Assembly: GCF_025698545.1 (NCBI RefSeq)
Contig: NC_068577.1
Coordinates: 5,595,501-5,659,500, forward strand
Direction: 5' to 3'
DNA from: Gossypium raimondii
Taxonomy: Eukaryota; Streptophyta; Magnoliopsida; Malvales; Malvaceae
DNA: 64,000 nt
The notes under the pieces are model-generated. The model worked only from the letters and a program-made list of their open reading frames with translations, was not told where the DNA came from and searched no databases. A program made the position numbers and the translations under genes. The first letter of the stretch is position 1; each line of letters starts with the position of its first letter. Of this stretch, positions 8,519 through 64,000 are shown one piece after another.

Positions 8519-9908
8519 GATGCATACTTTTATCGAAGATCTAATTCCGTAAGTATAAATAGGTTTATATAAATATTTTCTTAAATCAAATTGATGATCG
8601 AACCGATTAGACCACCATTTCAGTCAATCTGACCGATTCAACCGGTCCAATTAAAAATTGATTAAAAATTAAAAATAAAATTTTTTAAACTCCGATTCGA
8701 TCAATTTTTTAACTAGTTCAATTATTTCATACCCATTCCCAATCTAATCGGTTCAAAGTCGCTCTCTGGATTGATCTCTTGATCAATTCCCAATCCAATC
8801 GACCAGTCTAGTTCAAACAACACTGGTCTATACCAACATCTTACTTATCTGTTAATATATGATGAGCGTATATTAGTACATTTTGTTAGTGTTGGTGTAA
8901 AAGTATCTATAATGACAAATTAAATTTAATAAATGAGTAAAATTTTTGGAAGAAACAAGTTAACAATTTATTTTACTTTTGAGATATAAATTAAAAAATT
9001 AAATAAAATCAAGTATATATAAAAATTAAATTTGATCTCGAGACGAAAAAAACTCTCTAATAAGTGTGTTTCAAAGTTTTAATATATTATCTTATTTGTT
9101 GTTTCGAACTAATATTATTTTGGTTTAAGTGAGTTTTAAAAAACTCTCTAATAAGTGTGTTTCAAAGTTTTAACTTGTGTTTTCAATTACTACAACTTCA
9201 ATTGGGAGTTCTAACTTTCAATTTTTTTTTTTTTGCAATGGTAAGTTTAACAAGAAGCTAAACATGCCAATTTTGACTTTGATCCTATTTGATTTCACCA
9301 TAAAAGGTTAACAATTTTAACTTCTTCAACTTAAATTTCAATTGGTTTGAATTTAAAATAATTTTGAAATAATTTAATTTTAAATAATCTAAATTTAAAA
9401 TGATTACACCTCGAAATAAATAGAACAAGTAACATAGAATAACCTAAACTTGAAGTAACCATAACTCAAAACAATCTAGACCTATAATGACTTAACTAAA
9501 AAATTAAACCTCTCACTGAAATGACTTAAAGCAAACCAAGCTTGAAATTGACCCAAACCCGAAACAACTTGAAAATTTTAAAATCTTAATTAACTTGATT
9601 TAAATTAACCTGATCCCAAACCAAATAAATATGCACAACTAAAAGGTGATCTAGAATGTCGGAAAAGTTAAATCATGTAATCATCTTTTAAAATGTTTGA
9701 CATAGTTAAGTAAACGACCCTATGTCGGGCTACATAACAGGCAATTGGCTGAAACATTGGTAAGCTGGAGGATTAATTTGATCAGCTAACTTAAGGCGCT
9801 AACTTATTAATTTAATTAAGAGGTTAACTTATTACATGAGGTCGCTTCCATGCCAACCACAACAACTGCATTTCACCAGTTTTAAACTCCAATATCCATT
9901 AGAAGATG
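8519..9908. repeat. Upstream flank of P1, repeated before P4 and P6
   Basis: No gene. This AT-rich flank contains a block rich in GAACCG/CGGTTC motifs (about 8590-8830). It matches the flanks at 39968-40568 plus 46301-47096 (P4) and 53860-55150 (P6), and the beginning recurs at 60690 and 63500. At 9133-9137 it keeps the empty site GTTTT where block 2 received its Copia element. Confidence 0.75.
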
Positions 9909-9915
9909 ACCTACC
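9909..9915 (+). promoter_or_regulatory. AC-I element ACCTACC upstream of P1
   Basis: Exact ACCTACC about 190 bp upstream of the P1 start codon, inside a block conserved before all six genes. AC elements are known binding sites of plant R2R3-MYB factors. Confidence 0.55.
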
Positions 9916-10011
9916 AAATATCTTTAATATTGACCAAGCTTTCTCCTTTCTCAACCATGTATGATCAAATATCACCAACTCCAGTGGCCTATTCCCACTG
10001 CTCCAAGACCC

Positions 10012-10019
10012 TATATAAA
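10012..10019 (+). promoter_or_regulatory. TATA box of P1
   Basis: TATATAAA 88 bp upstream of the ATG at 10100. Transcription would be expected to start 25-35 bp downstream, that is, after the ATG at 10031. Confidence 0.75.
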
Positions 10020-10099
10020 CCCCTTACACCATGCTTTCTCTTCCTCACTCAAAACTAGCTATTAAGATAAAAAGACTTTGTTTCATCTGCTTAACAGAA

Positions 10100-13670: not shown

Positions 13671-16600
13671 TGTAACGCCCCAGAATTTGGGCCTAGAAGT
13701 ATTGGGCCTTGAGCAAGGGAATGGTTAGGAAACTGTGCACAAAAGTATGTATGCTTTAGTGGTTAAGGGTCCTAAGAGAAGTTGGAAAAGTCCTGGGTTC
13801 AAACCTGGGCTTTAGCAAAAATTTTGGTTTTAAGTGAATAAAACTCTGGATGCTTGGTTGTAGGCCTTTTAAATTATTATGTTAAAAATGTCATAAGGAA
13901 GCATGTGGTCTAGTGGTTGTGGCATCATTAAGGTTACAAAGGAGCCTGGGTTCATGTCTTGGCTTTTACAATTTATTTTATTCTTTTAAAGGAACCTGGA
14001 CTTTGGCCCTTAGACCTTTTTATTAATTAAAGATAAAATGTGAGACAAAATAGCTTGTGGCAAGGAGGCAAGTGGCGTGTTGAGCTATTGAGGGGGGATT
14101 GGGTTCGAATCCCATTGCAAGCAAAAAGGATATTTATTTTGCTAGTATGAGACAGAAGGAGTTTAAGGTGGTTTCGAACTCTGTAAGGTGAAGTTTGAAT
14201 TGGTCTTGGATGGAATTGTGGAGAAAATTAAGAAGGAGATTGGGGAGAGAATTAAGGAATTTCGAATATGGGAGGTTGGTAGCATGTTGTGGCCGAGTGA
14301 GATTCTAAGGCTTTAGTGGAATGCGACTAGGGGAAATAGGGAGCATTTTCGGCACTAGGCATTTCTTTGTTCGGTTTTGTGGGGTTTTAGATGAGAGTGC
14401 CGAATTCTCTTTGGGTTTTTACCATTCGGGGATTTGTTTCAAGTTTTGCGTTTTAACTATTGAGGTGACCAACATTGCTGCTATTTCCTTCCTTTCTACA
14501 TTTGCCGAATAGGTAACTTTCTTTTTGGTTTCTTTTTCTTTCTTTGCTTTGCTGAAATCCCTTTCCTCTCTCACTCTTAGTTCTGCTTCTTCTTTTCCTT
14601 CTAAATCCTTCTCCTCTCGGCCTCCCTTCTAAACTGAACCTACTCTCCATCTTCTTCTTCCTGCTTCCCGCTCTCTTCCAATCATAGCCGATTCTTCATA
14701 AGGATTTTTTTATACGTTCAGTTTATCATCTTTCCCTATTGTGTTTGGCCGAATATACTTGAACTATTCTAACCGATCCCATCATCATCAATTTTGGGTT
14801 CTAAAATCTCTAAAAGGGAAATGGACGTTTTCGATTATATGTTGCGTAATGAGATATCAATGATGGCGAGTAGTAGCCATTCTGAGGGAGGATCAGGAAT
14901 GGTACCAGCTGAGAATGGGCACGTAGCCCCTGCGCCCAAAGTTAAGTAGCATAAAGTGTAAGCTGTTCGGGATTTTCCACCGGGTTGCAGCAGGGTGGTT
15001 GCACCAATCTTTGGATCAAGTGGGCAATCACAACCGGCTGATCTAGTCAAGGGAGAGGTAATCTGTTGGACAAGTATTTTCGATAGAGGCTGTTTTGATA
15101 AGTTGATTGGGATTCGATTAACCCGATTGACAAGTGATTAATGGATTGCCTTGATTGATTGTAGGTTGGAATTCTCGTAGGTCTTTCAAATTTTTCGCAA
15201 TTAGGTGTGTATCTGTACACCGTAAATCATTACTGTCATAAAACCGAAAGAGTGTGTGTAATGACACCCTCTCTAAATTGCAAAGCAGCAAAAGTTAAAA
15301 AGTCGTGAGCACGACGTTCGAGACATCACGAGCGCGCGAGTGCTCGAGTGGTAAGCTTAGCGTGCGATACGTGGTAAAATGATCGAATTACCCCTGAAGG
15401 GTAAAATGATCGAGATACCCTCTTAGGGTAAAATAACCAAAATACCCCTGTAAGGTAAAATGACCGTAATGCCCCTAAAGGGTAAATGACTATTTTGCCC
15501 TTCGAGGTTAAATGATTGATTTGTCCGTGATGAAAATGATTGATTTATCTGTGATTTAAATGACTGCTTTGTTTGTAAATTGTATGACTGATTTTGAGCA
15601 TGGCATTCCGCATACAAAACATACTGCATGGGGTTGGGTTACTGTTATGGAGGAAGTACTGTACTAGTGGCTCTGTCACGATCACTGTGACTGGTGGCTT
15701 AGCCACACATTCTGATTACTGGCAGCTTTGCTACAATATTGTTGCTGGCAGCTTTATTGCGATACTACTGATGGCTGTGTGCCGGTCATATCACTGCTAC
15801 TGATGGCTTTGATTCGATCATATTATCGTTACTGATGGTTGTGTGCCGATCATATCACTGCTACTGATGGCTTTGGGCTAATCATATTGCTGTATTTATG
15901 GCTTGTAGCCATTCTGTTTATAGCTTATAGCTATTCTGCTTACGGCTCTTAGCCATTCTGATTACTAGTAGCTTTGCTGCGATACTGATTAGTGCTGCTA
16001 CTGGTGTTGATATTGATGTGATGGCTGGGTGGGTCGATTTTATCCCCACATGGTGTTTTGGTTGGTACGGGTGGTGTGTTGGCTGGATTGAGATGGGTTG
16101 CATTATTACATTGTACCGATATTGTATTGGGCTAAAGCCCACATTGTTACTGTATTGGGCTAAGACCCACACTATTATTGCATGTTGTATGCTGACTGTT
16201 TGATAGGGGATTACACACCGAGTTTTCGCAAACTCACCTTTCTGTCTAATTATACAGGTAATCCTCAACGTTAGACGGTTCAGAGCTGTGAGGGACTCGG
16301 AGAGGGCCACACAATTGCACATGTTTTATTCTGTTTTACTCATTTACTTAAGCAATTTGATTTTGATTCGGGTTGTAATAAGGCCTCTATAATTTTTGGA
16401 TTTTAAATTTGGAATTTGATGTGATTGTGATTTATATCTGCTAGAAGTAGAACACGGTTTTCTAAAATAATAACTATTTTTAACATTACGTTTCCGCACC
16501 TCAATTTTTAAATATCACATTCTCGTAGATCATTTGCTTTAAATTAAACTTTCTTTAACAATAAGGTTTTGAAGGTAATAACTTTTTAATAAACCTCGAT

Positions 16601-16762
16601 TGATAATAAACAAACACAAACTGAGGTTTTATACAAGTTTTAAATGGCAAGAAGTTTGAAATTTCAAGAAGGGTTTTTAATGAAAACATGGTTTTCGAAA
16701 AACACTTCAATGTGACATGCCAGATTCAGGCCTAACTTCTAGGTCGGGTGTGGGGTGTTACA
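13671..16762 (+). repeat. LARD 5' LTR (3,092 bp)
   Basis: TG...CA termini. It contains short tandem repeats of the type GGGTAAAATGA (about 15370-15500) and TGATGGCTxTGxGCCGATCA (about 15770-15870). Near the end is a block GGGGATTACACACCGAGTTTT also found in the Gypsy LTR. Compared with the 3' LTR it has about 190 extra bases (about 14910-15100). Confidence 0.9.
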
Positions 16763-17251
16763 TTTAGTGGTATAAGAGCCTAGTTGTAAAACTCGACTGT
16801 GGAATGCGTTTTCAAATTTTTAGATATTAAAAGGTTATTTTCGAATATGTGAAATGTTTTAATATACTTATTCTGAAAAGTGTGGCACACCGAGTCTCCG
16901 GCGCTGAATCCGTAAGTTTTCTGAATACTTTTGTCTATTTAGAAATTAAAATGCGGTAAGTTAGGAAGTACTGTGACTACTTTAGAAATTAGATTATACC
17001 ACTCTAGATAGAGCAAGCTGAAACTATAGGGGACTGGAACTGTAGTGAAACTTCAATCTGCATAAAACAGTTAGTGCTGATTAAACGAGAATAGACAATG
17101 GGCATAAGAGATATGCGCAAATGTGGTTCAAGAGGCTGTAGTAATGTTTTGAGTCAGAGTGCGCAGCGGGAGCGTAGTGGTGAAGTCTGTGTGTGCGACT
17201 ATCTTATTAGTTGGAAATTTCGAAGACGAAATTTCTTTAAGGGGATAGAAT
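16763..17251 (+). other. LARD internal region with primer binding site and polypurine tract
   Basis: TTTAG then TGGTATAAGAGCCTAG at 16768 is a primer binding site complementary to initiator tRNA-Met, with changes from TGGTATCAGAGCC. The leader includes CACACCGAGTCTCCGG (about 16888), shared with the Gypsy element. Just before the 3' LTR lies the polypurine tract AAGGGGATAGAA. There is no open frame of useful length. Confidence 0.8.
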
Positions 17252-20142
17252 TGTAATGCCCCAGAATTTGGGCCTAGAAGTATTGGGCCTTGAGCAAGGT
17301 AACTTTTAGGAAACTGTGCACAAAAGTATGTCTACTTTAGTGGTTAAGGGTCTTGAGAGGAGTTGGAAAGGTCCTGGGTTCAAACTTGGGCTTTATCAAA
17401 AATTTTAGTTTTAAGTGAATAAAACCTTAGATGTTTGGTTATAGGCCTTTTAAATTATTATGTTAAAAATGTCATAAGGAAGCATGTGGTCTAGTGGTTG
17501 TGGCGCCATTAAGGTTACAAGAGAGCCTGGGTTCAAGTCTTGGCTCTTGCAATTTATTTTGTTCTTTTAAAGGAACCTGGACTTTGGCCATTAGACCTTT
17601 TTTTTTAATTGAAGATAAAATGTAAGACAAAAGAGCTTGTGGCAAGGAGGCAAGTGGCGTGTTGAGCTATTGATGGGGGACTGAGTTCGAATCTCATTGC
17701 AAGCAAAAAGGATATTTATTTTGCTAGTATGAGGCGGCAGGAGTTTGAGGTGGTTTCGAACTCTGTAAGGTGAAGTTTGAATTGGTCTTTGATGGAATTG
17801 TGGAGCAAATCAAGGAGGAGATTAGAGAGAGAATCAATGGATTTCGAATATGGGAGGCTGGTAGTGTGTTGTGGTCAAGTGAGATTCTAAGGCTTTAGTG
17901 AAATTCGGCTAGGGTGAAATAGGGAGCATTTTCGGCACTAGGCATTTCTTTGTTTGGTTTTGTGGGGTTTTAGAGGAGCGTGCCGAATTCTCTTTAGGTT
18001 TTTACCATTCGGGGATTTCTTTCAAGTTTTGCGTTTTAGCTATTGAGGTGACCAAAATTGCTGCTATTTCCTTCCTTTCTATATTTTCCGAATAGGTAAC
18101 ATTTTTTTTGGTTTCTTTTTCTTTCTTTGCTTTGCCGAAATCCCTTTCCTCTCTCACTCTTGGTTCTGCTTCTTCTTTTCCTTCTGAATCCTTCTCCTCC
18201 CAGCCTCTCTTCTAAACTCAACCTACTCTCCATATTCTTTGTCTTTGCTTCTCGCTCTCTTCCAATCATAGCTGAATTCTTCATAATGATTTTTGTGTAC
18301 GTTCAGTTTATCATCTTTCCCTATTGTGTTTGGCCGAATATACCTGAACTATTCTAACCGATCCCATCATCATCAATTTTGGGTTCTAAAATCTCTAGAA
18401 TTGAAATGGACGTATCCGATTATATGTTGCGTAAAGAGATATCAATGGTGGCGAGTAGTAGCCATTCTGAGGGAGGATTAGGAATGGTGCCAGCTGAGAA
18501 TGAGCATGTGATAAGTTGATTGGGATTCGATTAACTCGATTGACAAGTGATTAATGGATTGCCTTGATTGATTATAGGTTGGAATTCTTGTAGGTCATTC
18601 ATACTTTTTGCAATCAAGTGTGTATTTGTAAACCGTAAATCATTACTGTCGTAAAGCCAAAAAAGTGTGTAATCACACCCTCTCTAAATTGTAAAGCGAA
18701 AAAAGTCGAAAAGTCGTGAGCATGGCGTTCGAGACATCACGGGCGCGCGAGTGCTCGAGTGGTAAGCTCAATGTGTGATATGTGGTAAAATGATCGAGAG
18801 ACCCTCTTAGGGTAAAATAACCAAAATACCGCTGTAAAGTAAAATGACCTTAATGCCCCTAAAGGGTAAATGACTATTTTACCCCTCGAGGTTAAATGAT
18901 TGATTTGTCCATGATGAAAATGACTGATTTGTCTGTGATTTAAATGACTATTTTTCCTATGAATTGTATGACTGATTTTGAGCATGACGTTTCGCATACA
19001 TGACATACTGCATGGGGTTGGGATACTGTTATGGAGGAAGTACTGTACTAGTGGCTCTGCCACGATCACGCGCATCGTGGTTTGGCCACATTCTAATTCA
19101 TCGCGCCTTTGTCGCAATATCGCTGTTAGCGCCTTTGTCGCGATACTCATCGATGGTCGTGTGCCGATCATATCACCGCATCGATGGCTTTGATCCGATC
19201 ATATTATCGTTACTGATGGCTGTGTGCCGATCATATCACTCTACTGATGGCTTTGGGCCAATCATATTGCTATATTTATGGCTTGTAGCCATTCTGTTTA
19301 TAGCTTATAGCTATCCTATTTACGGCTCTTAGCCAATCTGATTACTAGCAGCTTTGCTGCGATACTGATTAATGATTCTACTGGTGTTAATATTGGTGTG
19401 ATGGCTGGGTGGGTCGATTTTATCCCCACATGGTGTGTTGGTTGGTATGGGTGGTGTGTTGCTGGATTGAGATGGGTTACATTATTACACAGTACCAATA
19501 CTGTATTGGGCTAAGGCTTACATTGTTACCGTATTAGGCTAAGGCCCACACTGTTGTTGCATGTTGTATGCTGACTGTTTGATTGGGGATTACACACTGA
19601 GTTTTCAGAATCTCACCCTTCTGTCTAATTGTATAGGTAATCCCTAGCGTTAGACGGTTCGGAGCTACGAGGGACTCGGAGAGGGCCACACAACTGCACA
19701 TGTTTTATTCTTTTTTGCTCATTTACTTAAGCAATTTGATTTTGATTCGGGTTGTAATAAGGCATCTATAATTTCTGGATTTTAAATTTGGGATTTGATA
19801 TGATTGTGATTCATATCTGCTAGAAGTAGAACACAGTTTTCCAAAATAATAACTATTTTCTAACATTACGTTTCCGCACCTCAATTTTTAAATATCACAT
19901 TCTCTTAGATCATTTTCTTTAAATTAAACTTTCTTTAACAATAAGGTTTTAAAGGTAATAACTTTTTAATAAACCTCGATTGATAATAAACAAACACATA
20001 CTGAGGTTTTATACAAGTTTTAAATGGCAAGAAGTTTGAAATTTCAAGAAGGGTTTTTAATGAAAACATGGTTTTCGAAAAACAATTCAATATGACACGC
20101 CAGGTTCAGGCCTAACTTCTAGGCTGGGTGTGGGGTGTTACA
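17252..20142 (+). repeat. LARD 3' LTR (2,891 bp)
   Basis: Same ends and internal landmarks as the 5' LTR. It lacks about 190 bases at 18507/18508, apparently a deletion after insertion, and differs at many scattered sites, so the insertion is not very recent. Confidence 0.9.
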
Positions 20143-20379
20143 ATTGGCCTACATTTCACGTTGAATATTCCAACCTTTGGAACAATATATACGAATTTTT
20201 ACCTACTCGTGAGGCAATTATCGCTCTGAAGTTAGCTTGCGATCCGGAGTACATGCCATGGTTTAGACACTATGGCAAGCCATATCTACTAGCGGAAGAG
20301 GCGAGGGGTAGACAACGTGAGGAGGCCACGACAGGAGCCTAGGTATCCAAGGCTAGGTGCAGCTTTCGAGGCGGGTCTA
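20143..20379 (+). pseudogene. PMD gene, copy 1, middle part
   Basis: Resumes directly after the LARD target duplication. It reads WPTFHVEYSNLWNNIYEFLP, then ACDPEYMPWFRHYGKPYLL, the conserved C-terminal region of transposon-borne PMD proteins. It then passes into an arginine-rich stretch and is cut by the Gypsy element near 20380. By comparison with 50548-50596 about 48 bases of host sequence are missing at this junction. Confidence 0.75.
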
Positions 20380-20732
20380 TCCCACTACACATCCACCACT
20401 CAGAAACCCAGTTCAGCACAACTCTTGCCAAAATTAAGAGCAAAAATACAACCTTTACTGTCCCAAAGATTCGAACCTATGGCCTCCCTCACACCAACAC
20501 TCCACTTATCCACTAGACCAGCAGGCCCATTCTGTTAATTATTTGCCAACTTTTACTTAAAAGCCTACTGACCAAAGATAGGGCTTATTCATAAAAAATA
20601 CCAAAATTTGCCTTAAGTCTTGGCTTGAACTTGCGGCCTTCCAAACACTCCCAGAACACATAACCACTAAAGTTGATAGATGTTTGTGTCACACATTCAC
20701 AATACTGAAAATTAAAATTTTAGGGCGTCACA
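20380..20732 (-). repeat. Truncated Gypsy 3' LTR (about 350 bp)
   Basis: Matches 27710-28064 of the other LTR from TCCCACTACACATCC to the GGGCGTCACA terminus. Next to it (20733-20745) is the polypurine tract, which reads TTAGGGGGTAGAAT on the minus strand. The rest of the LTR is missing. Confidence 0.85.
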
Positions 20733-20744
20733 ATTCTACCCCCT

Positions 20745-21681
20745 AAAGATAATTTCGTCCTCCTGATCAGAACAGATGAGGACACTGCTGACACATTGCA
20801 TCCTCAGGCTCCCATGTGGCCTTTTTAGTGTTATGCTTACGCCATAGAACCTTTACCAGTAGAATGGATTTCCTTCTCAGAACATTAACGTTGCGATCCA
20901 AAATCTAAATCGACTCTTCCTCAAAGGTCAAATCTGGCCTAACCTTGATCTCTTCAATAGGGACAATATGAGTAGGATCAGAGTGGTAGCGCCTCAAATT
21001 GTCCTCCAGTATCTGAATCACCCTCTCAGACTGACCATCGATCTGAGGATGGAATGTAGTACTGAAGTCCACCCTTGAACCTAGAGCCTCAGGTAACTTC
21101 CTCCAAAACCAGGACGCGAAACAAGGATCCCTATCAGAGGTGATCGAAATCTGTACTTTATGCAGTCTCATTATCTAAAAAATATAAAGTTTCGCCAGCT
21201 TGTGCAGAGAATTATCAGTACGAACCGATATAGAGTGGGCAGAATTAGTCAATCGATCCACGATGACCCATATTAAATCCTTCTTAGTGGGTGTTAGAGG
21301 CAACCCATTAACGAAATCCATAGTTACGCACTCCCATTTCCAAAGAAGAATCTTAACCAGTTGCAGCAAACCCGAAGGTAATTGATGCTCAGCCTTAACC
21401 TGTTGGCAAGTCAAACATTTACCCACAAAATCAGTAACCTCACATTTCAACCTTGGCCACCAATATAACTCACGAAGGTCTCGGTACATCTTATTTCCGC
21501 CAGGATGCATAGCATAAAGGCTACTATACGCCTCTCTCAGTATGGCTTGTCTCAAATCAGTATCATTTGAAACACAGATTCTCCCACGAAAATAGAGTAC
21601 CTCATCACTGTTTAGTCCAAAATTTGTAGTACAACTACCCTCAATCTGTCGGAATCGAAGACCGAATGACTCATCCTCCAA
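20745..21681 (-). pseudogene. Gypsy integrase remnant
   Basis: The frame at 21681-21175 has an H2C2 zinc-binding region (HPGGNKMYRDL ... GKCLTCQQVK) followed by the integrase core beginning TMDFVNGLP with its first Asp. The frame at 21171-20905 supplies SITSDRDPCF (second Asp) and GQSERVIQILED (catalytic Glu). It then jumps to SDPTHIVPIEEIKVRPDL, so the region usually between the core and the C-terminal domain is deleted. The tail at about 20840 resembles the chromo-like VKVLWRKH...ATWEPED. Stops and frame changes make it non-functional. Confidence 0.75.
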
Positions 21682-22050
21682 CTACTTACCCTTAATCTGA
21701 TCAATCCAAAACGACTTAACTTGAAGCTCGGCTAATAAACTACCATTCATCAAATAAACTTAGGCAAGCAAATATTGCCCTCAAATTAGTCATAGCCTTA
21801 CGGCTCAGTGCGTCAAACACCACATTGGCCTTACCAAGGTGGTACTCAATGGTGCAGAATAGGAGCATCAGTCAGTACAGTCTAAAACTTCTTAAAGCTC
21901 TCTTACTGTGCATCAGTCCAGTTAAACGGCACACCCTTACGTAGCAGCTTAGTCAAGGGTGCTACAATCAATGAAAAACCCTCTACAAATCATCGATAAT
22001 ATCCCACTAGCCCTAGAAAACCGCGGATCAGACACGTTCCTAGGCTACTT

Positions 22051-22690
22051 TCACTCCAACACAGCCTCAATCTTTCGAAGATCAACTTGAATCCCCTCAG
22101 TTGAAACTACATGACCAAGAAATGTCTCATTACGCAGCCAGAACTCGCACTTACTAAACTTAGCATAGAGCTGTTTTTCCTTCAAAATCTGAAGAACGAC
22201 TTGAAGGTGCTCATCATGCTCATCCTCAGTCCTCGAGTAAACCATTATGTCGTCGATGAATACCACCACAAACTGATCCAAATAAGGCTGGAACACTCGA
22301 TTCATTAAATCTATGAAAGTTACCGGTGCATTAGCCAATTCGAATGGCATCACTAGGAACTCGTAGTGACCATAACAAGTCCTAAACACCGTCTGACGAA
22401 CATCACCCTCCTTAACCCTTAATTGATGATATTCAGATCGAAGGTCAATCATAGAGAAAATCGAAGCTCCTCAGAACTGGTCAAACAGATCATCTATCCT
22501 CGGTAGGGGGTAATTATTCTTAATGGTTAATTTATTCAGCTGCCTGTAGTCGATGCACATACGCTTGGGTCCATTCTTTTTCTTTACAAACAGAACCGGT
22601 GCTCCCCACGGAGACACATTAGGGCAGATGAACCCACGATCTAAAAGCTCTTGAATCTGAGCCTTAAGCTCCACAAGCTTATTCAGTGCC
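22051..22690 (-). pseudogene. Gypsy reverse transcriptase remnant
   Basis: RT blocks in order: [40 protein letters not shown], a break near 22460, then [13 protein letters not shown] and [12 protein letters not shown] with the catalytic Asp pair. The usual MPFGLTNAPA appears as [10 protein letters not shown]. An RNase H region would lie at 21700-22050, but no continuous frame remains there. Confidence 0.8.
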
Positions 22691-23723
22691 ATTCTATAGG
22701 GAGCGATGGACACTGGAGTTATACCAGGAAAGAGCTCTATCTCAAACTCCACTTCACGATTCGAAGGTAAACTCGATAGCTCATCCGGAAAGATATCTGG
22801 AATATCATTTACCGTTCTGATATCCTTAACTGTAGAGTCCCTAAAATCTGAAACACTTACATAGGCCAAGAATGCCTCACATCCCTTATGAACCAACTTC
22901 TCCGTCACCAGTGCAGAGATCAAATTAGATAAGTAGTTCCGACGTTCTCTGATCATGACTACCTCCATATCCTCCTCAGTGATTTTTACCTTCTCGACCA
23001 GGGCAGAAAGATCTCGCTCCCTCTGCGGGGCTATCAGAACTTTCAAATTATCTCTGAATTCATCATCAAAATGGACACATCGCTCATACTTAGATGCTAC
23101 CATACCTCGCGTATAGTGGCTCAGTCTCAAAAACTCGGCCTCGTACTCAGCCACTGATCGATCCCCCTGTGTAAGATTCAGAAACTCCCTCCTACGTGCA
23201 TTCACATAACTAGCTTCTACATATTTCCCCTGGAATGCGGTCTTAAAGAACTCCTAGGTTAGACGCTCGGGCTAAGTGCTCTCATTAACAGTCACCCACC
23301 ACTAATAAGCCTCGTTCCGCAGCAGCGAGATTGCACCTTTTAATTTCTGCTTAGGGGTACAATCTAGATCATCCATTATCCTCTCTGTTGCCTCAATCTA
23401 GTACTCGGCCACACTTGGGGAGACCCTAGTGACACCCCTAAAAAGCTCAGCTCTATTGCATCGGAGTCGTTCTGTAACCGACCATCGACTCCTAAATCCA
23501 GTATTGGGCCCAGTGACCCTCTCCAAAATCCTTAGCATAGCTTAGGACAATGCATCATCCCCAGCCATGCGATCTTGAGACCCGCCTCAAGAGCAGTGAC
23601 ATCAAGCGCCTCACTCAGATCCAAATTTGACAGATTGCCAGATGACGAAGACCTAGCTCGAGCAGCTCTATGGCCTCTACCACGGCCTCTTGTACCCCGT
23701 CCGCGAGTACCTCTGGTGCTCAT
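22691..23723 (-). pseudogene. Gypsy gag remnant
   Basis: Begins MSTRGTRGRGTRGRGRG at 23723 (basic, Gly/Arg-rich, typical of plant Gypsy gag). After stops near 23530 and in 23220-23400 it continues as [20 protein letters not shown] and LSHYTRGMV, the retrotransposon gag domain. Soon after [14 protein letters not shown] it passes directly into the C-terminal part of the protease/RT linker ([16 protein letters not shown]). The zinc knuckle and protease active site are therefore deleted. Confidence 0.75.
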
Positions 23724-24122
23724 TATCTAATTGCATTTTATTGGTATTAACAGTTTTATGCATCAGTTTACAGTTCCAGTGTTTATTAACAGATATTTTA
23801 TAAAAAAATATCAAAAGTGTAAAGTTTGTTTCAGACATCGTAGTGTCAATCAATGTCTATCAATTTTACTACAGTCTCAGTATATACTATTTTAAGTGTT
23901 TTCAATATAGTCTATCTATAATAGTCTCAGTATATACTATCTATAGCAGTTTCAGGATATACTATCAATGATAGTTTTAGTTTCAGTTTAAACAATTCAC
24001 AGTATCAAAAAACTTACTGGATCGGCACCGGAGACTCGGTGTACCATATTTTCAGTAAACATATTTAGAAATCAGTTCTCAGAAATAATGTCTTAAAAAC
24101 CCATATCCACAATCGAGTTTTA

Positions 24123-24141
24123 CAACCTGGCTCTGATACCA
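24123..24141 (-). other. Gypsy primer binding site (tRNA-Met)
   Basis: Minus strand reads TGGTATCAGAGCCAGGTT, a standard complement to the 3' end of initiator tRNA-Met, five bases (TTTAG) inside the 5' LTR. The LARD has the same TTTAG spacer. Confidence 0.85.
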
Positions 24142-24146
24142 CTAAA

Positions 24147-45648: not shown

Positions 45649-45664
45649 AATATAACCTTAAAAT

Positions 45665-47805: not shown

Positions 47806-47819
47806 ATGGGAGTTCCCAT
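47806..47819 (+). other. 3' flank hairpin of P4
   Basis: ATGGGAGTTCCCAT, as in P1. Confidence 0.45.
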
Positions 47820-47834
47820 TATTTGGTGTATTTT

Positions 47835-49094: not shown

Positions 49095-49507
49095 GGGTGA
49101 AATACTTAAAAATGCCGAATTAAAAAAAATTTATTGGATTAGGTCAGTTTTTGAAAAAATTACGGAACTAAGCCGAAATGACGAAAACTGTTCCAGCTAG
49201 AAGCGCTTTCCACAACGGTTACCCCCCAACAGCTTCCCCACCCCAACAGCTATTTAAATAGCAGTTGAACCCCCCTGAACTAATGACTATTTTTTTCCTA
49301 TATAAACCCCTAATTCTTTTATTTTTTCAATTCAATCTCAACTCATCTCTCTCGCATTCTCAAACTTCTCTCAAATTTCCCTCAATTCCCTCTTAATTTC
49401 TCACTCATTTTCATTCTTCTCTCAACTCTTCTTTTTATTAAAATTGTATTAATGTTTTTTAAATTATTTTTCTATTACAAATTATTTCGTATTTTTCAAA
49501 ATTAGTA

Positions 49508-50928
49508 ACGGAAAAATCTCTAATTCGTTTGGATGACAAACACATTTCGGTCAATCAATTGTAAATGGTAAATTTTTTATTATATTAGTCTAATTTAATT
49601 TAAATATTTTCTTGTTATACTGAAATTTAATATTTTGTATTTTTTTTATATATAATCGGAAGATCAAATTTTGGAGACGTATATTTGTAATCTACCTGTT
49701 CCTCCATACTTGAGAAATACAAGATTTTTGCACGTGGCTCGTATGGGTAGGGGGTTTAAATTGGACCCCACACTTGTAAGCGAGTTGGCGGAAAGGTGGA
49801 GACCCGAGACGCACACATTCCATCTTCCATGCGGCGAGTGCACTATCACACTTGAGGATGTGCAGTTACAACTCGAGTTATCGATGGATGGGCCGATAGT
49901 GACTGGGTCAGTTGTCATAGCCGATTGGAGAGATATATGCGAGACTATGGGCCAAGTTATGTGGGACTACCAGAGGAGCTTTAAGATATACGACTTTTGT
50001 TAGATCAACGATAGGAAGTGGAGGTATATATTTTTTAAATTTGAATTATATAATATTAACATAGTTGATTTAAAAATTAATAGTATATATAATTAAAAAT
50101 TTTATTATTTTAATATAGTTTGAATGCATCCCGTTCGAATTCTTGGTGAATCCCAACATCTGGCATGTGAAGGTGTCATTGGTAGTGTATGCTATAATGA
50201 AGATGCATGAATCAGATAAAGTTATGCAACAGTTTGGGTTTAGGTAAACGATTCTGTTGACACCCCAAGACATCGAATATCTGCATTATATCGACTTGTG
50301 GGGGAGAATAGATGGAAATTGGCCTACATTCCACGCTTAATATACTAACCTTTGGAACAATAGATACGACTTTTTACCTACTTGCGAGGCCATTATCGCT
50401 CTAAAGTTAGCCTACGATCCGGAGTACATGCCATGGTTTAGACACCATGGCAAGCCATATCTACTAGTAGAAGAGGTGAGGGGTAGACAACGTTATATGA
50501 GGAGGCCACGACGGGAGCCTAGGCATCCAAGGTCTGGAGCAGCTTTCGAGGAGAGTCCATCATCTACACCAACACAAGAACCGACACCGATGGTCGCACC
50601 ACCCCTAATCAATATGGTTTGACTTATTCTGGTGCTTTTCTAACCCCGTCATTTTTACACAAGCACCACACTTGCACCACATTTGTCTATTTCTACATCG
50701 ATGCCAGGTTTTATTTTTGGACCACCACTTCCATCTCTAGCATATTACACACCGATGCAATTGATGTTTCAAATGACGGCGATTTCGACGATGGCATATA
50801 GGCCATCTATGTTTGGGGCACCAACCGAAAGTCTGATTGTTCTATCATCGGTGTGTAGGACACAATATAGTTATATGCATACGCCGATGGTGTCACAAAC
50901 ACCCATATTCGTAACCACCTGTTCCTAG
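49508..50928 (+). pseudogene. Plant mobile domain (PMD) gene, copy 2
   Basis: Same beginning as copy 1: ACG (49508) in place of ATG, then KSLIRLDDKHISVNQL. Exon 2 encodes LETYICNLPVPPYLRN, VARMGRGFKLDPTLVSEL, ERWRPETHTFHLPCGECTIT and LSMDGPIVTGSVV with no stop. A deletion of about 500 bp then joins ADWRDIC to sequence that belongs downstream (ACTATGGGCC...), putting it out of frame. The later parts (WPTFHA-like, DPEYMPWFRHHGKPYLL) and the low-complexity C-terminus (MPGFIFGPPLPSLAYYTPM) remain. It is non-functional but less decayed than copy 1, and is useful as the uninterrupted reference. Confidence 0.78.
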
Positions 50929-50940
50929 AGTGGATGATAT

Positions 50941-51557
50941 ACGATGGCAATTGAGGAGCACTCCACAATCAACCTAAATAAATCTGATTGAGCTCAACCT
51001 AAGAGTTAGCCAAACCTCAGTTGTATTCGAAAAAAATTACAAACTAAGAGTTAACCAAATCGAGTAGTTCGAGTTTCAATTTTGAATCGAATTAAATTTT
51101 ACAATTCGAATAATCTGAATACACAATTGTTGTAAATATAAAAGTAAATAATTATTAACTTTACAACTCAAAAAAGTATAAAAAGTATAAAGAATATAGA
51201 AAAAAACTTAAAAAATATAAAAAACCTTAAACCTTAAACCTTAAACCATAAACCCCTAAACTATAAAACACTAAGACCTACAAAATGCTAACACTAACCC
51301 TACTTTAACAAAAACCAAAACCCTTGTCCTAAAAAAACCCTAAACTCAAAAGGAAAACACCTTCAGTTGGAAGCATTTTCAATGAATGTGACAGAAAGCG
51401 TGTCTAGTTGAAAGTTTTTTTTTTTTTTTTGCAAATCCGCTGAAAATATTTTCAGTAGGAAGCATTTTCGTGTTTTTAATCTAATCACATAATTTTTCCA
51501 AAAATCAGCTTAATCTAGTAATTTTTTTAAAAATCGGCATTTTTGAGAAATTTACTC
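50941..51557. repeat. Right subterminal region of MULE copy 2
   Basis: Short CCTTAAACCTTAAACC stretch and three AGTTG-AAGC motifs before the terminus, as in 29341-29918. No gene. Confidence 0.55.
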
Positions 51558-51620
51558 TAGCATATATGTATATAATTGATTAGGGGACATAGTAGGAAAG
51601 GTCTATAAGGAAGTGTGTAG

Positions 51621-52093
51621 TAGAGTCGCTCATGGTCGGGCGGCCTACTACTGGACGGCCCCACCAAATATGGGAGGGTTTGGGTAAAATATAGGCCCAA
51701 ATATGGGCTTGGGCAAAAAACGAGGCCCGATTAAAAAGCGGGCAGACCTCGGCACCACTTTTTGGCCTGCCCGCCCAATTTAATAATAAATATTTTATTT
51801 TTTAATTTTTAATTTTAAAATACTTTTAAAATAATTTTTAAATTTTTTAATTTTAAAATATTTTAAAATACTTTGTAAAATTTTTTAATTTAAAAATATT
51901 TTTAAAATAATTTTTTAATTTTAAAATAATTTTTGGTATTTATTTAAAAAAGCAGGCAAGGCAGGCAGGCTTATGAATTTTTCGGCCGGCTGGACAAAAT
52001 TCTAGGCCCATATTTGGGCAGCCGGGCCTAGGACCCGGCTGAAATTTTTATGGGCCGGCCCGAACCCGCCCGCCCGGCCCATGAGCACCTCTA
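51621..52093. mobile_element. hAT-type MITE (473 bp)
   Basis: Starts TAGAGTCGCTCATGGTCGGG and ends CCATGAGCACCTCTA, giving inverted termini TAGAG-YGCTCATGG. It is flanked by a perfect 8-bp target duplication GTGTGTAG (51613-51620 and 52094-52101). Block 1 has the empty site at 29974-29981 (ATGTGTAG). GGCC-rich arms surround an AT-rich centre; no coding capacity. Confidence 0.9.
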
Positions 52094-52101
52094 GTGTGTA
52101 G

Positions 52102-52660
52102 ATTACATAGTTTCTTTATATAATCAGCTTCGAAAGTACTATTGTTGTGCATGACATGTTAGGGAAACTTTGTTAACATGGAGGTTTATCGAAGTATACT
52201 ACTTCACATATTATTAATCTATAATATATATAAAAGTATGAGTTTGAAATTTATTTTTAATTGTCGAGAATATTTTTATTTTCTATCATATTATTAAATT
52301 CACAATTAAAAATAATTATAATATTTAAACTAGTATTATTACTTACAAAAGTTGAAATAAAATAAAAGTGATACATTTAAAAATAATTATAATTTAATAA
52401 AAGTTGTGATAATTACACATTTAAATATAATTAGTCGTGCTAATCATAAAATATAGGGAAAATGTGATAATTATAATTATAATTTACGATTATTAATTAA
52501 AATAAAATAAAATAAAATAATTATTTAAATAGAATTTTAAACCTATTAATTATCACTTCACTGTTTGATGAATATTTCGTAATGGATACGTTCTTTCCAT
52601 AAGGTTTTTAATTGTTGGGTTAGAATGAGTTTATGTGATAATGTGGTGAATGTAGTTTTG
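52102..52660. other. AT-rich spacer, no gene
   Basis: Block 2 version of 29982-30600. Simple AT-rich sequence only. Confidence 0.65.
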
Positions 52661-52664
52661 GGAG

Positions 52665-52862
52665 TTGGATAACAAAATCATTCTACCAGCCTCTAACTTT
52701 ACTGCCTTTAACCAGTTTTTCTTAAGATTCATATCAGCGGAGGAAAGAACTGGTGTTACTTTTGAGGATTTCGCTAGCCAAGAATATTTTAAGAGAGAAT
52801 TACAAGAGATTGTACGAATTTTAAAAAATGATGAGGAGTTCCAAAATCAACATTTTTTATAG
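52665..52862 (+). pseudogene. Unknown conserved exon-like fragment
   Basis: A 65-codon open stretch without an ATG start, beginning LDNKIILPASNFTAFNQFFL and containing EERTGVTFEDFASQEYFKR, then EIVRILKNDEEFQNQHFL and a stop. Its composition is that of a soluble helical protein, unlike the AT-rich surroundings. I do not recognise the family. It looks like the last exon of a lost gene. The block 1 twin (30605-30779) has a premature stop. It converges on P5, whose stop codon is 210 bp away. Confidence 0.45.
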
Positions 52863-52934
52863 TTGGGACCCAAATATATATCCCATATAAGTAATAACGT
52901 ATCAAAGTACAACAAATTTCAAGCACAAGAAATA

Positions 52935-52956
52935 ATGGGATTTGGGAAACTCCCAT
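52935..52956 (-). other. 3' flank hairpin of P5
   Basis: Same folded motif as behind P2. Confidence 0.45.
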
Positions 52957-53071
52957 TTATACAAACAAATATATGTGGTGAAAAAAAAGAACATACAATA
53001 CTCAAAATCAAGAGACGACTGAAATCACATTAAAACAAATCCAGTATGCAGCAGATAAACAAAAGGGTATT

Positions 53072-53425
53072 TCAAGGAGTAGAAGGAGAAGGTGGTGGAG
53101 AAAGGAAAGGAATAGAGGGGATTGCAGTTGGGATTGTGGGCATGCTTGGCAGAGGAGGCAGTGTGGCCCTTGGTACACTTGGCAATGTGGGCAACCCAGG
53201 CATGGTAGGAAGTGGAGGAAGCGCCCCAGGCCTTGGCAATGCCGGTATGGATGGCTGTGGGAGATTAGGGATAGATGGCAGTGGGGGGAGTGTGGTTGTA
53301 GGCAAAGTTGGCATTGGAGGCAATTGAGGCAGCTGCAGAAGGTGACGAGCAGCTATCCCAACATCAATGCTTGCAAATGACAAAGCCATCACGAATGCTA
53401 AAGCAAAGCAATTGAAAGATGCCAT
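53072..53425 (-). CDS. P5: secreted proline-rich protein, 117 aa
   Basis: Block 2 counterpart of P2. Signal peptide MASFNCFALAFVMALSF, then RHLLQLPQLPPMPTLP and the triplet-proline chain with SIPALPRPGALPPLP, ending SPPPSPSTP. It differs from P2 at two visible residues. The extra Leu-Pro-Gln-Leu after the cleavage site distinguishes the P2/P5 subtype, compensated by shorter spacing later so that the length stays at 117. The start at 53425 is chosen over the in-frame ATG at 53506, which lies too close to the TATA box. Divergent from P6, with 1.9 kb between their start codons. Confidence 0.86.
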   Translation of the reverse strand: MASFNCFALAFVMALSFASIDVGIAARHLLQLPQLPPMPTLPTTTLPPLPSIPNLPQPSIPALPRPGALPPLPTMPGLPTLPSVPRATLPPLPSMPTIPTAIPSIPFLSPPPSPSTP

Positions 53426-53516
53426 TTTTCTAGAGATGTGAGTCCAATTAAGCAGACGAAAGAAAGCTCTTGTTTTGATAGTTGTGGAGTGAGGGAGAGA
53501 AAGCATGGTGGTGGGG

Positions 53517-53524
53517 TTTATATA
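53517..53524 (-). promoter_or_regulatory. TATA box of P5
   Basis: TATATAAA on the minus strand, about 92 bp from the start codon. Confidence 0.75.
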
Positions 53525-53603
53525 GGTCTTGGATCAGTGGAGTTGGTAATGTTTGATCATGTATGGTTGGAATGGAGAAAACATAGTCAATATTAAAGGA
53601 TTT

Positions 53604-53610
53604 GGTAGGT
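53604..53610 (-). promoter_or_regulatory. AC-I element upstream of P5
   Basis: ACCTACC on the minus strand within GACCTACCAAAT. Confidence 0.55.
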
Positions 53611-53624
53611 CAACTTCCCATGGG

Positions 53625-55150
53625 TATTGGAGTTTAAAACGGGTGGAATGCTGTTGTGGTTGGCATAGAAGCTTCATCCAGCCACTTAATTAAACAGTAT
53701 ACTTAAACAATCCTCCAGGTTAGCAAAGTTTTCGCTAGTTGGCCAGATATCTAACAGAATTAGGATTTGTTTACTTAACATGTCAGGTATGATACTCGTA
53801 TTTCGAAGTTGATTATATAAATAAATTTGCCATGGTTGAGCTTAAAATTGTAAATAAATTGCCATATACCTTTATCGAAGATCTAATTCCATAAGTATAA
53901 ATAGGTTTATATCAATGTTTTCTTAAATCAGATCGATGATCGAACTGATTAGACCACCATTTCGGTCAATCCGATTGGTTCAACCGGTCTGATTAAAAAA
54001 TAATTAAAAATTAAAAATAATTTTTTTAAACTCCGATTCGACTAGTTTTTTAGTCAGTTTAATCGGTTCGTAGTGATTCTCGATCTAATCGGTTCAAAGT
54101 CACTCTCCGTATTGATCTCCCGATCAATTCCCAATCTAATCGACTAGTCCAGTTCAAACAACACTGGTAAATACCAACATTTTACTTATCTGTTAATATA
54201 TGATAAGCCTATATCAATACATTTTGTTAGTGTTGGTATAAAAGTATCTATAATGAGAAATCAAATTTAATAATTAAGTAAAATTTTTGGAAGAAACAAG
54301 TTAACAATTTATTTTACTTTTGAGATATGAATTAAAAGTTAAATAAAATGAGGTATATAAAAATCAAATTGGATCTTAGACCAATAAAAACTCACCAATA
54401 TTATCTTATTTGTTGTTTCTAACTAATATTATTTTGGGAGTTCTAACTTTCAATTTTTTCTTTTTGCTTGTAGGCAGCCCAATACCAATGGTAAGTTTAA
54501 CAAGAAAGGTAAACATGCCAATTTTGATTTTGATCCAATCTGATTTCACCATAAAAGCTTAATAATTTTAATTTCTTCAACTTAAATTTAAATTGATTTG
54601 AATTCAAAACAATTTAAATTTAAAATGATTTAATTCTAAATAACCAAAATTTAAAATGATTAGAGCTCAAATAAATAGACCAAGTAACTTAGAATAACTT
54701 AAACTTGAAGTAACCATAACTCAAAACAATCTAGACCTATAATGACTTAACTCAAAAACTAAGCCTCTTACTGAAATGACTTAAAGCAAACCAAACTTGA
54801 AATTGATAAACCCGAAATAACTTGAAAATTTTAAAATCTTAATTAACTTGATTTAAATTAACCTGATCCAAAACCAAATAAATATGCACAACTAAAAAGC
54901 CATCTAGATTAATGTCCAACAAGTTAATTCATGTTTAAAATATTTGACATATTTAAGTAAACAACCCTATGTCGGGCTACATAACAGGCAATTGGCTGAA
55001 ACATTGGTAAGCAGGAGGATTAATTTGATCAGCTAACTTAAGACGCTATTAATTTAATTAAGAGGCTAACTTATTACATGAGGTAGCTTCCACGCCAACC
55101 ACAACAACTGCATTTCACCATTTTTAAACTCCAATATCCATTAGAAGATG
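53625..55150. other. Divergent P5/P6 intergenic region with duplication junction, no gene
   Basis: To 53850 this matches the P2 upstream flank. From 53851 it becomes the P1/P4-type upstream repeat (GAACCG-rich block about 53935-54165, then AT-rich sequence). The junction marks a rearrangement that brought P6 next to P5. Confidence 0.65.
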
Positions 55151-55800: not shown

Positions 55801-55809
55801 GATTTGCCG

Positions 55810-60418: not shown

Positions 60419-60423
60419 ATAGT

Positions 60424-60755
60424 GAAATTAAAATCAACTTCGTAGTATATATTTAAATTCATATGCAACACTACTAGTGAGATCAAAATTGAAAATAACT
60501 ATTAAGGATGGTGAATTGAAATATATGTATATGAAAATAAATAAAAAACAAATTAATTAAACTTATATTTGAGTTAAACTATAATTAAACATTAAATTTA
60601 TAAAAATACTTATATTATATTTAAATTAAATAATATACAAAAATATATTATATTAAATCATAATGAAAATCATTACATTATAAATAAATTGTCATATACC
60701 AATGCATATTTTTATCGAAGATTCAATTCGTAAGTATAAATAGGTCTATATCAAT
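60424..60755. other. Continuation of P6 flank and start of a unit repeat
   Basis: Resumes the P3-type flank after the solo LTR. From about 60690 it enters the start of the next unit (CCAATGCATATTTTTATCG) before being cut at 60755 by the TIR element. No gene. Confidence 0.6.
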
Positions 60756-63351
60756 GTATTAGTATACACTCATCTATATCTAATATATTTTCCAACTTAA
60801 TTTAACTTTAATTAAATTACTTAAAATAGTTAATTTTTGAATTATAAGCAAACATTGTTTCTTCTTTTGCAAATTTTAATCATGTTGTTTTTCCCCCCAT
60901 AAGTTAATATTTTTTTTATTTTTGTCCAACCATTTTTTTTAAAAAAAATTAGTAATTTTTGCGTAATTTTTTACATGTCATTAACACATAAATTTGGTAA
61001 TTATTTTATCTTGATCCCCGAACCAAAAATCCTGAACCTTGAACTCAAACCATGAACCTTAAACCTTGAACCCTAAACCCTAAAGTTTAAGGTTTAAGAT
61101 TTAAGGTTCAGGATTCGGTTTTGGGTTTGGAGTTGATAGTTTAGGGTTTTAAGTTTGGGATTACGGTTCAAACGTTCAAGGTTACAAGTTATGAGTTACG
61201 AGTTTGGAGCTTATGGTTTAAGGGTTCATGGTAATGGGTTCAAGTTTAGTGTTTGGGCTTAGGGTTTAGGGTTCATAATTTTGAGATTTTAGATTTAAGG
61301 TTTAGGGGAAAAAATTACCAATATTGTGATAAATAATTTTGATTATAAAAATTTACATTTCAACAAATTTTTTATGTCATTGCCACATAAATTTGATAAA
61401 TTTTTTACCACAAACACTAAACCTAGAATCTCGAACCCAAAACCTAGAAATTGAAACCCTAAACTCGAACACATAACCATGAACACTAAATCTAGAATCT
61501 CAAACCCTAAACCATAAACCCTAAATCTTAAACCATATACCCTACAAATATAACCCTAACCAAACCCTAAACAACATAACAATAAACCATAAATTAGAAC
61601 CCATAACACTAAATCCTAAATCTAGAACTTGAACCATAAACCCTAAACTCGAACCCATAACCCTAAATCATAAGCCTAAAATCTCAAACCTTAAATAATT
61701 AAATTAAAACCACAAACGCTAAACTTAAACACAATCATAAACCATAAACCCTAAACACTTAATCTAGAATATCAATCCCTAAACCTAAAATATAAAAGCA
61801 AAAACCCTAAACTGAAAATAATAACATTTAACAATTAAACTTTAAACCCAAACCCTAAACCTTAAACTCTAAAATTAATAACAATAAACCCTCGAGCACT
61901 CAAACCCATAACCATCAACCTTAAACCATAAATCATGAATCGTAAATCTAAAATCTCAAAACATGAACATTAAAAATATATAATCATAAACCATAAATCA
62001 TTAAACCTCAAACCTAAACTCAAACATATAACCTAAACCCTAAATGCTAAACCTCAAACTCAAAATCTAAAATCTCAAATCTTGAACCCAAAACCCTAAA
62101 GCCCAAACCATAAACTTAGACTAATAACCATAAATCCCAAACCATAAACCCAAAACCTAGAAAATCAAACCTTAAATTGTAAACTCAAAAATTAATGTCT
62201 ATAAACCTTAAACCATTGAACCCATAACCAAGAATCCTAAACACTAAACCCTAAATACAAAATCTAGAATCTCAAACCCTAAACCCAAAACATAAAACCT
62301 TAAACAAAAAATTTAAACACAAAACCTAAACTTCAACCCATAACCTTGAATTCTAAACATTAAACATTAAACCATGAACTTTAAATCTAAAATCTCGAAC
62401 CCTAAATCTAAAACATAAAACCTAAAACCCTAAACTTAAACATAAAACTATAAACCATAAATTTAGAATCACAAACACTAAACCCAAAGAATAGAAGCCC
62501 AAACCCTAGACTCAAACATCTAACCATAAACACTTAAACCCTAAACCTAAACAATAAACAATAAACCATAAAACCTCAATCACATAACCGTCAACCCTAA
62601 ACCTAAACCATAAACCATTAACCTTAAATCTAGAATCACAAACCATGGACCATAATCACTAAAATCTTAACCCCAAAATGTAAACTCAAGCCCATAACCT
62701 TGAACACTAAACTCTAAACCATAAACCCTAAACTAGAACATATAACCTTAAACAATAAACTATAAAATCTAAACTTTAAACCTAAAACTTAAACCCTAAA
62801 CCTTTAAATTATAAACCCTAAACCTAGAATCTCAAACCATAAACCATAAACATAGAAGCCTAATCACTAAACCTTAAAGCCATAACCCTAAATATTAAAC
62901 CATAAACACTAAACCCTAAATCCTAAGCCCAAACCTTAAACTCAAACCCATCACCCTAAACCCCTTTAACCATAAACCCAAACTCTAAACTAGTAAACCA
63001 TAACCACAAAACCTTAACTTTAAACTCAAATCTTAAACCTTAAATCCCAAACCTTAAACTTTAGGATCCAAGGTTTGAGTTTAAGGTTTGAGATTTTGGG
63101 TTCGGGGTTCAAGGTAAAATAATCACTAAAATTATGTGTTATGACTTGGAAAAATTGCACAAAAAAGTACTATTTTTTTAGAAATTGGTTGCACAAAAAA
63201 AAATAACTTATAGAAAAAAATAGAATGATTAAAATTTACAAAAGAAAAGAAGATGCTTGTTTATAATTTAAAAATTAATTATTTCTTTAATTTAATTAAA
63301 TTTTAATTAAGTTAGAGAAGATATTAGATATAGATGAGTGTCTAATAATAC
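60756..63351. mobile_element. TIR element filled with telomere-like repeats
   Basis: The left end GTATTAGTATACACTCATC...TAATAT matches the inverted right end GTATTATTAGACACTCATC...TAATAT over about 45 bp (ACACTCATCTATATCTAATA is nearly perfect). The interior is AT-rich, followed by degenerate CCCTAAA-like repeats. No transposase and no clear target duplication, so the superfamily is undetermined. Confidence 0.6.
61018..63115. repeat. About 2 kb of degenerate telomere-like repeats
   Basis: Roughly 200 imperfect AAACCCTAAACC / AACCATAAACC units. A short inverted portion (GGTTTAAGGTTCAGG-type, 61081-61310) lies near the left end and another (GGTTTGAGTTTAAGG, 63060-63110) at the right end. Around 61315-61400 lies an AT-rich spacer. 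Too degenerate to be a recent telomeric insertion. No gene. Confidence 0.8.
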
Positions 63352-64000
63352 TTTGTTATATTTAAAATTGTATGACATGCCACTATTTTATTGGTGCCTA
63401 AAAGCTATACTTTTTAGGATCATCCTAATATATATTATTGCTTATGAAAATATATTATATTAAATCATAATGAAAATAATTACATTATAAATAAGTTGCC
63501 ATATACCAATGCATACTTTTACCAAAGATCCAATTCTGCAAGTATAAATAGATCTATATTAATGTTTTCTTAAACTGGACTGATGATCGAACCAATTAGA
63601 CTACCATTTCGTTAGTTCGATCGGTTCAATCGGTCCGATTAAAAAATGATTAAAAATTAAAAATTTAATTTTTTAAACTTCAATTCGACTAGTTTTTTAG
63701 CTAGTTCAATTGGTTCGTATCAGTTCCCGATCTAACCGGTTTAAAGCCACTCTCTGAATCGATCTCCTGATCGATTCCCAGTCTAATCGATCAGTTCGGT
63801 TCAAACAACACTGGTTTATACCAATATGAACCTATATCAATACATCTTGTTACTATTGGTATAGAAGCATCTATAATGACAAATCAAATTTAATAATTGA
63901 GTAAAATTTTCGGAAGAAACAAGTTAACAATTTATTTTAATTTTGAGATATGGATTAAAAAGTTAAATAAAATCAGATATATATAAAAATCAGTGGATCC
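63352..64000. repeat. Start of a third tandem unit
   Basis: From about 63430 the sequence matches the junction region before block 2 (39910 on). From about 63500 it repeats the upstream flank of P1, P4 and P6, including the GAACCG-rich block, up to the end of the window. No gene is inside the window. By spacing, another proline-rich gene may lie 1-1.5 kb beyond the end. Confidence 0.65.

Follow-up and report, generated by a model that had tools for sequence, protein, structure and literature searches.

In poplar, proline-rich peptides (PR-peptides) are described as short proteins, most of which have LPPLP repeats and one C-terminal SPPP; BLAST similarity to AtPRP9/AtPRP10 is a further feature of the class. 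In Populus trichocarpa 23 genes for PPLP proteins form a cluster on chromosome 17 that probably arose by tandem duplication (Showalter et al. 2016, PMC5073881). In Table 4 of that survey, 16 PR-peptides carry locus names of chromosome 17; they measure 97-174 amino acids (aa), 116 aa in 6/16, and have mostly three PPLP; all have a signal peptide, and none has a glycosylphosphatidylinositol (GPI) anchor or a Pfam entry. Related clusters are reported for the PELPK proteins (At5g09520/At5g09530), which are secreted, Leu-Pro-rich and clustered in Arabidopsis, rice and Sorghum, and for the PEHK class of grape, where 18 known and predicted proline-rich genes lie on one chromosome and are ascribed to tandem duplication (Newman and Cooper 2011, PMC3149072). 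The present analysis concerns a stretch of 64,000 nucleotides of Gossypium raimondii, positions 5595501-5659500 of contig NC_068577.1 (here C13), referred to as the window; it contains six genes for a 117-aa proline-rich protein, P1-P6, and probably belongs to a tandem cluster that codes for short, secreted cell-wall proteins rich in Leu and Pro, of the PR-peptide type. This kind of cluster is already known from poplar, and that on C13 is a further case, larger than the window shows; no paper describing it was found in the literature searched.

Regarding the genes, all six are intact single frames of 117 codons (Table 1), located where a preliminary description of this DNA had placed them, and the differences among them are substitutions plus two in-frame 9-base indels. 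A tblastn search of the window (E ≤ 1) returned no copy besides P1-P6, the leftovers being weak (best E 0.004, at 25443-25664). An upstream ATG, giving a frame of 140/144 aa, was considered as the true start and rejected: it lies 16-17 bases after the first TATAAA base, so that it most likely precedes the transcript start, and it is out of frame in P3.

As for the proteins, their 117 aa fall within the 97-198 aa listed for poplar PR-peptides (PMC5073881), and all six have 1-3 PPLP, three PP[LF]P and a single SPPP near the protein end, with 21-22 hydrophobic-Pro dipeptides over the whole sequence. Judged by eye, the N-terminus is hydrophobic and ends in GLAA/ARH, and a hydrophobic tail is lacking; from residue 27, a start chosen by us, the protein has about 36% Pro, contains three Arg and lacks Lys, Asp, Glu, Cys and Tyr. 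Clustering by tandem duplication also applies: 27 copies lie within 0.5 Mb on C13, and the window shows tandem segments. The definition of classical proline-rich proteins (PRPs), instead, calls for at least 45% PVKCYT or at least two PPVX[KT]/KKPCPP repeats: P1-P6 have 40-43% PVKCYT and no PPV, a range that overlaps the 33-44% of many listed poplar PR-peptides (PMC5073881). PELPK repeats are absent in 6/6, and the one SPPP in each protein is below the two or more SPPP repeats used for extensins (PMC5073881). P1-P6 have those features of PR-peptides that can be tested here and, by motif, are not PELPK proteins, classical PRPs or extensins; the secreted-looking, tandemly duplicated proline-rich family of the preliminary description is supported.

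Another possibility is that P1-P6 are classical arabinogalactan proteins (AGPs), for which the cut-off is 50% Pro+Ala+Ser+Thr; their 55-56% exceeds this value. This assignment is improbable, since by eye the C-terminus lacks the hydrophobic tail that a GPI anchor would call for, most prolines follow Leu, Ile, Phe, Met or Val and not Ala, Ser or Thr (by eye and by dipeptide count), and PPLP together with a single terminal SPPP is the arrangement described for poplar PR-peptides.

Returning to the PR-peptide type, the likeness to the poplar proteins concerns size, motif and clustering, and was drawn from the features described for them, not from alignment; the C13 cluster differs in having members of 142-274 aa, a hybrid between paralogues and many transposons. 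PELPK proteins share with the C13 family the Leu-Pro richness, the clustering and the secretion (predicted here), but PELPK is absent from P1-P6; contig C4 separately encodes a long PELPK protein, which matches P1 at only 40% identity over 98 residues (E 2.8e-4). The grape PEHK cluster resembles that of C13 in its tandem duplication, as far as it is described, and has a different repeat motif. Database searches gave no match in Pfam (six proteins), NCBIfam (three) or PDB (one), and no relatives in the prokaryote contigs searched; Arabidopsis AT2G22510 is a candidate homologue.

A role in the cell wall is inferred. The protein would enter the secretory path and shed its first ~25 residues; the mature part may then undergo proline hydroxylation, with arabinosylation of the C-terminal SPPP, and it would form an extended, non-globular rod in the wall, presumably without tyrosine or cysteine cross-links because it contains neither residue.

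The six genes also share about 250 bp of upstream sequence, with TATAAA, ACCTACC, ACCAACT and TTGACC/T at matching places. Both MYB-type sites fit the consensus of the secondary wall MYB-responsive element (SMRE), ACC(A/T)A(A/C)(T/C) (PMC3726746). The motifs were picked after the alignment had been viewed, and nine patterns were scanned, six of which had no match in the six promoters. The promoters of P1, P2 and P3 have 3, 3 and 2 SMREs, counts reached in fractions 0.013, 0.022 and 0.076 of 2000 shuffles, and their W-box counts do not stand out (0.27, 0.05 and 0.23, again over 2000 shuffles); these tests are not independent, as the copies are related. Regulation by MYBs of the secondary-wall type is offered only as a suggestion.

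At the level of the locus, self-BLAST resolved two tandem segments, P1(+)P2(-)P3(+) and P4(+)P5(-)P6(+), into which transposons were inserted later. The cores of the two segments are collinear except for the insertions, and the region of P3 (38411-39522) matches that of P6 (55049-56204); the flanks of P1/P4 and P2/P5 diverge by 3-9% depending on the piece (Kimura two-parameter distance, K2P). The tandem segmental duplication put forward earlier is therefore borne out, and the fixed order and orientation of subtypes holds as + - + / + - +, except that P6 is a hybrid gene instead of a simple P3 copy. Three insertions are each confined to one of the two segments (Table 1), and those at 13671-20145 and 40568-46295 have clean empty sites in the sister segment. 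The long terminal repeats (LTRs) of the two older elements differ by K2P 0.09-0.11, which exceeds or matches the divergence of the segments (0.03-0.09), and dating by this means was dropped; LTR divergence was not converted into years, because transitions are in excess. The element at 13671-20145 has only ~490 bp between its LTRs, and these are 9% apart, yet its empty site is clean in a sister segment that differs by 3-9%.

P6 was compared with its relatives at informative sites, defined as the positions at which P3 departs from a base shared by P1 and P4. Between -299 and +102 relative to the ATG, nearly all sites are P1/P4-like, with three P3-like (all at or before -256) and three matching neither; from +189 to +417, P6 is P3-like at every informative site except one, which matches neither. 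The switch lies inside the coding region, in an 87-bp stretch devoid of informative sites, with P1/P4 character up to codon 34 and P3 character from codon 63, so that P6 is a hybrid between paralogues. The pattern fits one unequal crossover or a gene conversion, which these data do not separate; a single unequal crossover would also delete a P2-type gene lying between the two parents. Immediately upstream of the start codon and at the codon itself, P3 and P6 are strongly divergent (36/99 sites in 38611-38710).

The family extends well beyond the window. A protein search of the genome itself (750.8 Mb, 281 contigs) listed 60 matching stretches; C13 carries 28 copies, of which one lies at 6480069 and the other 27 fall within 5594899-6093890. 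Twenty-two of the 28 are open from the start codon, counting the copy at 5795875, whose stop comes three residues early, and six are interrupted; one of these, at 5594899, lies 252 bases before the window starts. The open copies are 117 aa long in eight cases and 146 aa in another eight, while 96, 109, 115, 116, 149 and 274 aa occur once each. The earlier claim that every copy is intact with exactly 117 codons holds for 6/6 in the window but describes the window and not the family, since on C13 only 22/28 copies are open and only 8/22 of these have 117 codons; given 22/28, the chance of finding six open out of six is about 0.2 by our arithmetic, which is not exceptional. The array was also expected to continue past the window, the preliminary description seeing the start of another unit at its end. 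The family does continue, the next match in the genome-wide listing being C13:5680338, 20.8 kb on, but the supposed unit does not: a ~600-bp block that is present four times in the window (a1-a4) has its last occurrence there, and this block a4 is real, spanning from 63443 or 63509 to C13:5659567, but the 9.4 kb beyond it contain no family gene, so that it is an orphan as far as checked. The seventh gene predicted about 1.5 kb past its start was not found.

The copy at C13:5680338-5681210 codes for a 274-aa member in which, by eye, the proline-rich module occurs four times, and at C13:5961413-5976593 five copies are spaced by 3.63-3.68 kb, three of them with identical coding sequence. Further copies are found on contigs C12 (two) and C5 (one), with distant ones on C3 (two), and the unplaced C50 has three open copies with broken or partial pieces beside them. 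The C50 pieces are of P1, P2 and P3 type, 95-99% like their best window match; C50 belongs either to a different haplotype or elsewhere in the array. The copies on C16 were not counted as extra, as a 3.4-kb stretch is the same as C13:6003200-6006600 apart from 34 gaps and 5 mismatches; a further 2.4 kb of C16 matches C13:5997.5-5999.9 kb at 96.3% (47 gaps, 27 mismatches). Among the 30 matches listed between C16 and C13, none concerns L035, a part of contig C16.

These redundant copies bear on whether the duplicated segments are false products of assembly, an outcome that the preliminary description had named as fatal to its reading. Poor polishing and redundancy do exist nearby: C50 and C16 carry further copies, the latter with the 34 gaps and 5 mismatches given above, and in the 3.63-kb array of C13 (5.961-5.976 Mb) gaps exceed mismatches in 2/3 unit comparisons and in the 5976 copy. 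The stretch around the interrupted copy at 5594899 has 21 gaps to 39 mismatches against P3, and some interruptions may be assembly errors given the gap-rich comparisons at both places. In the window, instead, mismatches are well above gaps, 97:28 for P1/P4 and 15:4 for P2/P5, so that the six frames appear reliable. Divergence between the segments is 2-9%, and each has insertions that the other lacks, two of which show target-site duplications as well as empty sites; false duplication is a poor fit and very improbable.

As for selection, intactness and fixed length had been the main argument for it, with the ratio of nonsynonymous to synonymous divergence (dN/dS, omega) among copies proposed as a check. 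The argument is weakened by the interrupted copies and by lengths of 96-274 aa, but the ratio is below 1 in all codon-model fits: 0.39 for P1-P5 (twice the log-likelihood difference, 2dlnL, 11.8; p=0.0006), 0.515 for 12 genes (lnL -1213.07 against -1222.84 at omega 1; 2dlnL 19.6) and 0.335 for 16 genes (lnL -2046.90 against -2092.77; 2dlnL 91.7). Within P1-P5, omega is 0.36 in the signal part (p=0.038) and 0.43 in the mature part (p=0.013). The 12-gene set has ten genes on C13 and two on C50, excluding P6 and the C12/C5 outgroups; the 16-gene set, chosen from 28 extracted frames, adds P6, the two from C12 and that from C5, and both tests are approximate, with the null kappa fixed at 2. Eight 146-aa forms, g6064, g5680, g6480 and c50_61 were left out, their repeat structure being too different to align. 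NG86 (Nei-Gojobori) ratios for the 15 pairs of P1-P6 are 0.19-0.32 in 13 cases, and 0.38 and 0.77 in the near-copy pairs, on five changes in total. Seven recent pairs, chosen by us from 17 compared, together have 21 replacement changes in 1958 sites and 16 silent in 760, a ratio of 0.51 (one-sided Fisher p=0.032) that treats the pairs as independent, an assumption for g5991/g5995 and g5998/g6004. In addition, P1 and P4 differ at 2/354 coding against 140/3219 flanking positions (p=4e-5). Purifying selection on the family, on average, is modestly supported.

Several results weigh against this reading. The same comparison is not significant for P2/P5 (3/354 against 31/1385, p=0.06); silent changes in P1/P4 plus P2/P5 are only 2 in ~194 sites, where by our arithmetic about 7 are expected at the flank rate, so that the low coding divergence does not come from protein selection alone; and constraint is uneven, with ratios of 0.77 for P2/P5, 0.78 for g5991/g5995, 0.88 for g5961/g6064 and 1.26 for g5961/g5991 (16 replacement, 5 silent). 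Given the few silent changes in these two pairs and a P1/P4 promoter conserved as much as the frame, part of the likeness comes from homogenising exchange or from a mutation rate that is lower close to the genes. An account in which the copies are alike mainly through recent gene conversion or unequal exchange, with little current selection and an array that drifts and decays, would draw on the same silent sites, promoter and four high ratios, on P6 as a product of exchange, and on the 6/28 interrupted copies of C13; it is the less likely one, because omega is significantly below 1 in the codon models and 0.51 in the recent pairs, and only in-frame indels separate the coding frames of P1-P6. 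Under the preferred reading of a cluster of PR-peptide type, unequal crossing-over between copies would make, delete and fuse units, while exchange and mild purifying selection would keep recent copies alike; the cluster would then mainly set the dose of one product.

A bolder proposal is that of an actively rearranging wall-protein locus, in which unequal crossing-over in the conserved proline-rich stretch exchanges the 5' half (promoter and signal peptide) and the 3' half among paralogues, P6 being one product, and copy number, under the shared SMRE/W-box promoter, tunes wall or fibre properties between species; this is unlikely and should be taken as speculation. Separately, a cotton protein named GhPRP5 is reported to affect fibre length in plants subjected to RNA interference (PMC4507145). 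Should related species differ in copy number, this locus would become a candidate for traits of the wall or the fibre. The cluster also suggests that poplar is not alone in having large tandem clusters of PR-peptide-like genes. It is, moreover, a compact case, a single sequence recording duplication, the insertion of transposons, a hybrid gene and decay.

Table 1. Features of the locus; positions refer to the window, except for the last row, which refers to contig C13.
Feature	Position	Strand	Description
P1	10100-10453	+	Gene for 117-aa proline-rich protein, single unbroken frame
P2	30988-31341	-	117 aa, second subtype; HLLQLPQLPP opens the mature part
P3	38703-39056	+	117 aa, third subtype
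P4	47288-47641	+	117 aa, near-copy of P1 (2/354 bases differ)
P5	53072-53425	-	117 aa, near-copy of P2 (3/354 bases differ)
P6	55342-55695	+	117-aa hybrid, P1/P4-like until +102, P3-like from +189 (informative sites)
P1 promoter	9850-10099	+	ACCTACC (-191), TTGACC (-170), ACCAACT (-126), TATAAA (-86); counterparts before all six genes
Segment 1 core (P1-P2)	9138-31766		Self-BLAST; collinear with 46306-53851 except insertions
Segment 2 core (P4-P5)	46306-53851		Self-BLAST
Block a1	8520-9137	+	First piece of tandem segment
Block a2	39972-40568	+	8.2% from a1
Block a3	53847-54437	+	12-13% from a1 and a2
Block a4	63443-64000	+	15-16% from other blocks; orphan
LTR element, ~3-kb LTRs	13671-20145		Segment 1 only; 5-bp target duplication; empty site in segment 2
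Gypsy-type relic between 350-bp repeats	20380-28064		Segment 1 only; no clear target duplication
Copia LTR retrotransposon	40568-46295	-	Segment 2 only; 5-bp target duplication; LTRs 1.5% apart
Interrupted C13 copies	5594899, 5721696, 5833279, 5910244, 5976123, 6093564

The remaining content of the window is of plant type, with fragmentary LTR retrotransposons and a non-LTR reverse transcriptase; the labels Gypsy and LINE (long interspersed nuclear element) are our own, from domain and context. Setting aside a frame that overlaps P3, there are 14 other open reading frames of at least 100 aa; of the ten scanned with Pfam, seven match transposon domains and three match nothing. That everything else in the window is broken is thus roughly right for the 10/14 frames scanned, but the Copia element retains pol pieces of up to 505 aa.

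Some features of the window ends are reported separately. Positions 768-8026 are an abutting tandem duplication of 3,629 bp, 98.9% identical, whose repeat has many dispersed relatives on other contigs (40 of 3479 candidates scored); its identity with the 3.63-kb unit of the gene array at C13:5.961-5.976 Mb was rejected, as the two have no mutual match of at least 200 bp. A 41-bp tandem repeat at 116-349 has GCGGCG...AAAAAGCGCCGC inverted arms. Finally, a long degenerate telomere-like tract (AAACCCT/AACCCTA) occupies 61407-63060, away from a chromosome end, and shorter TTAGGG-like tracts are present at 781-1208 and 4410-4827.

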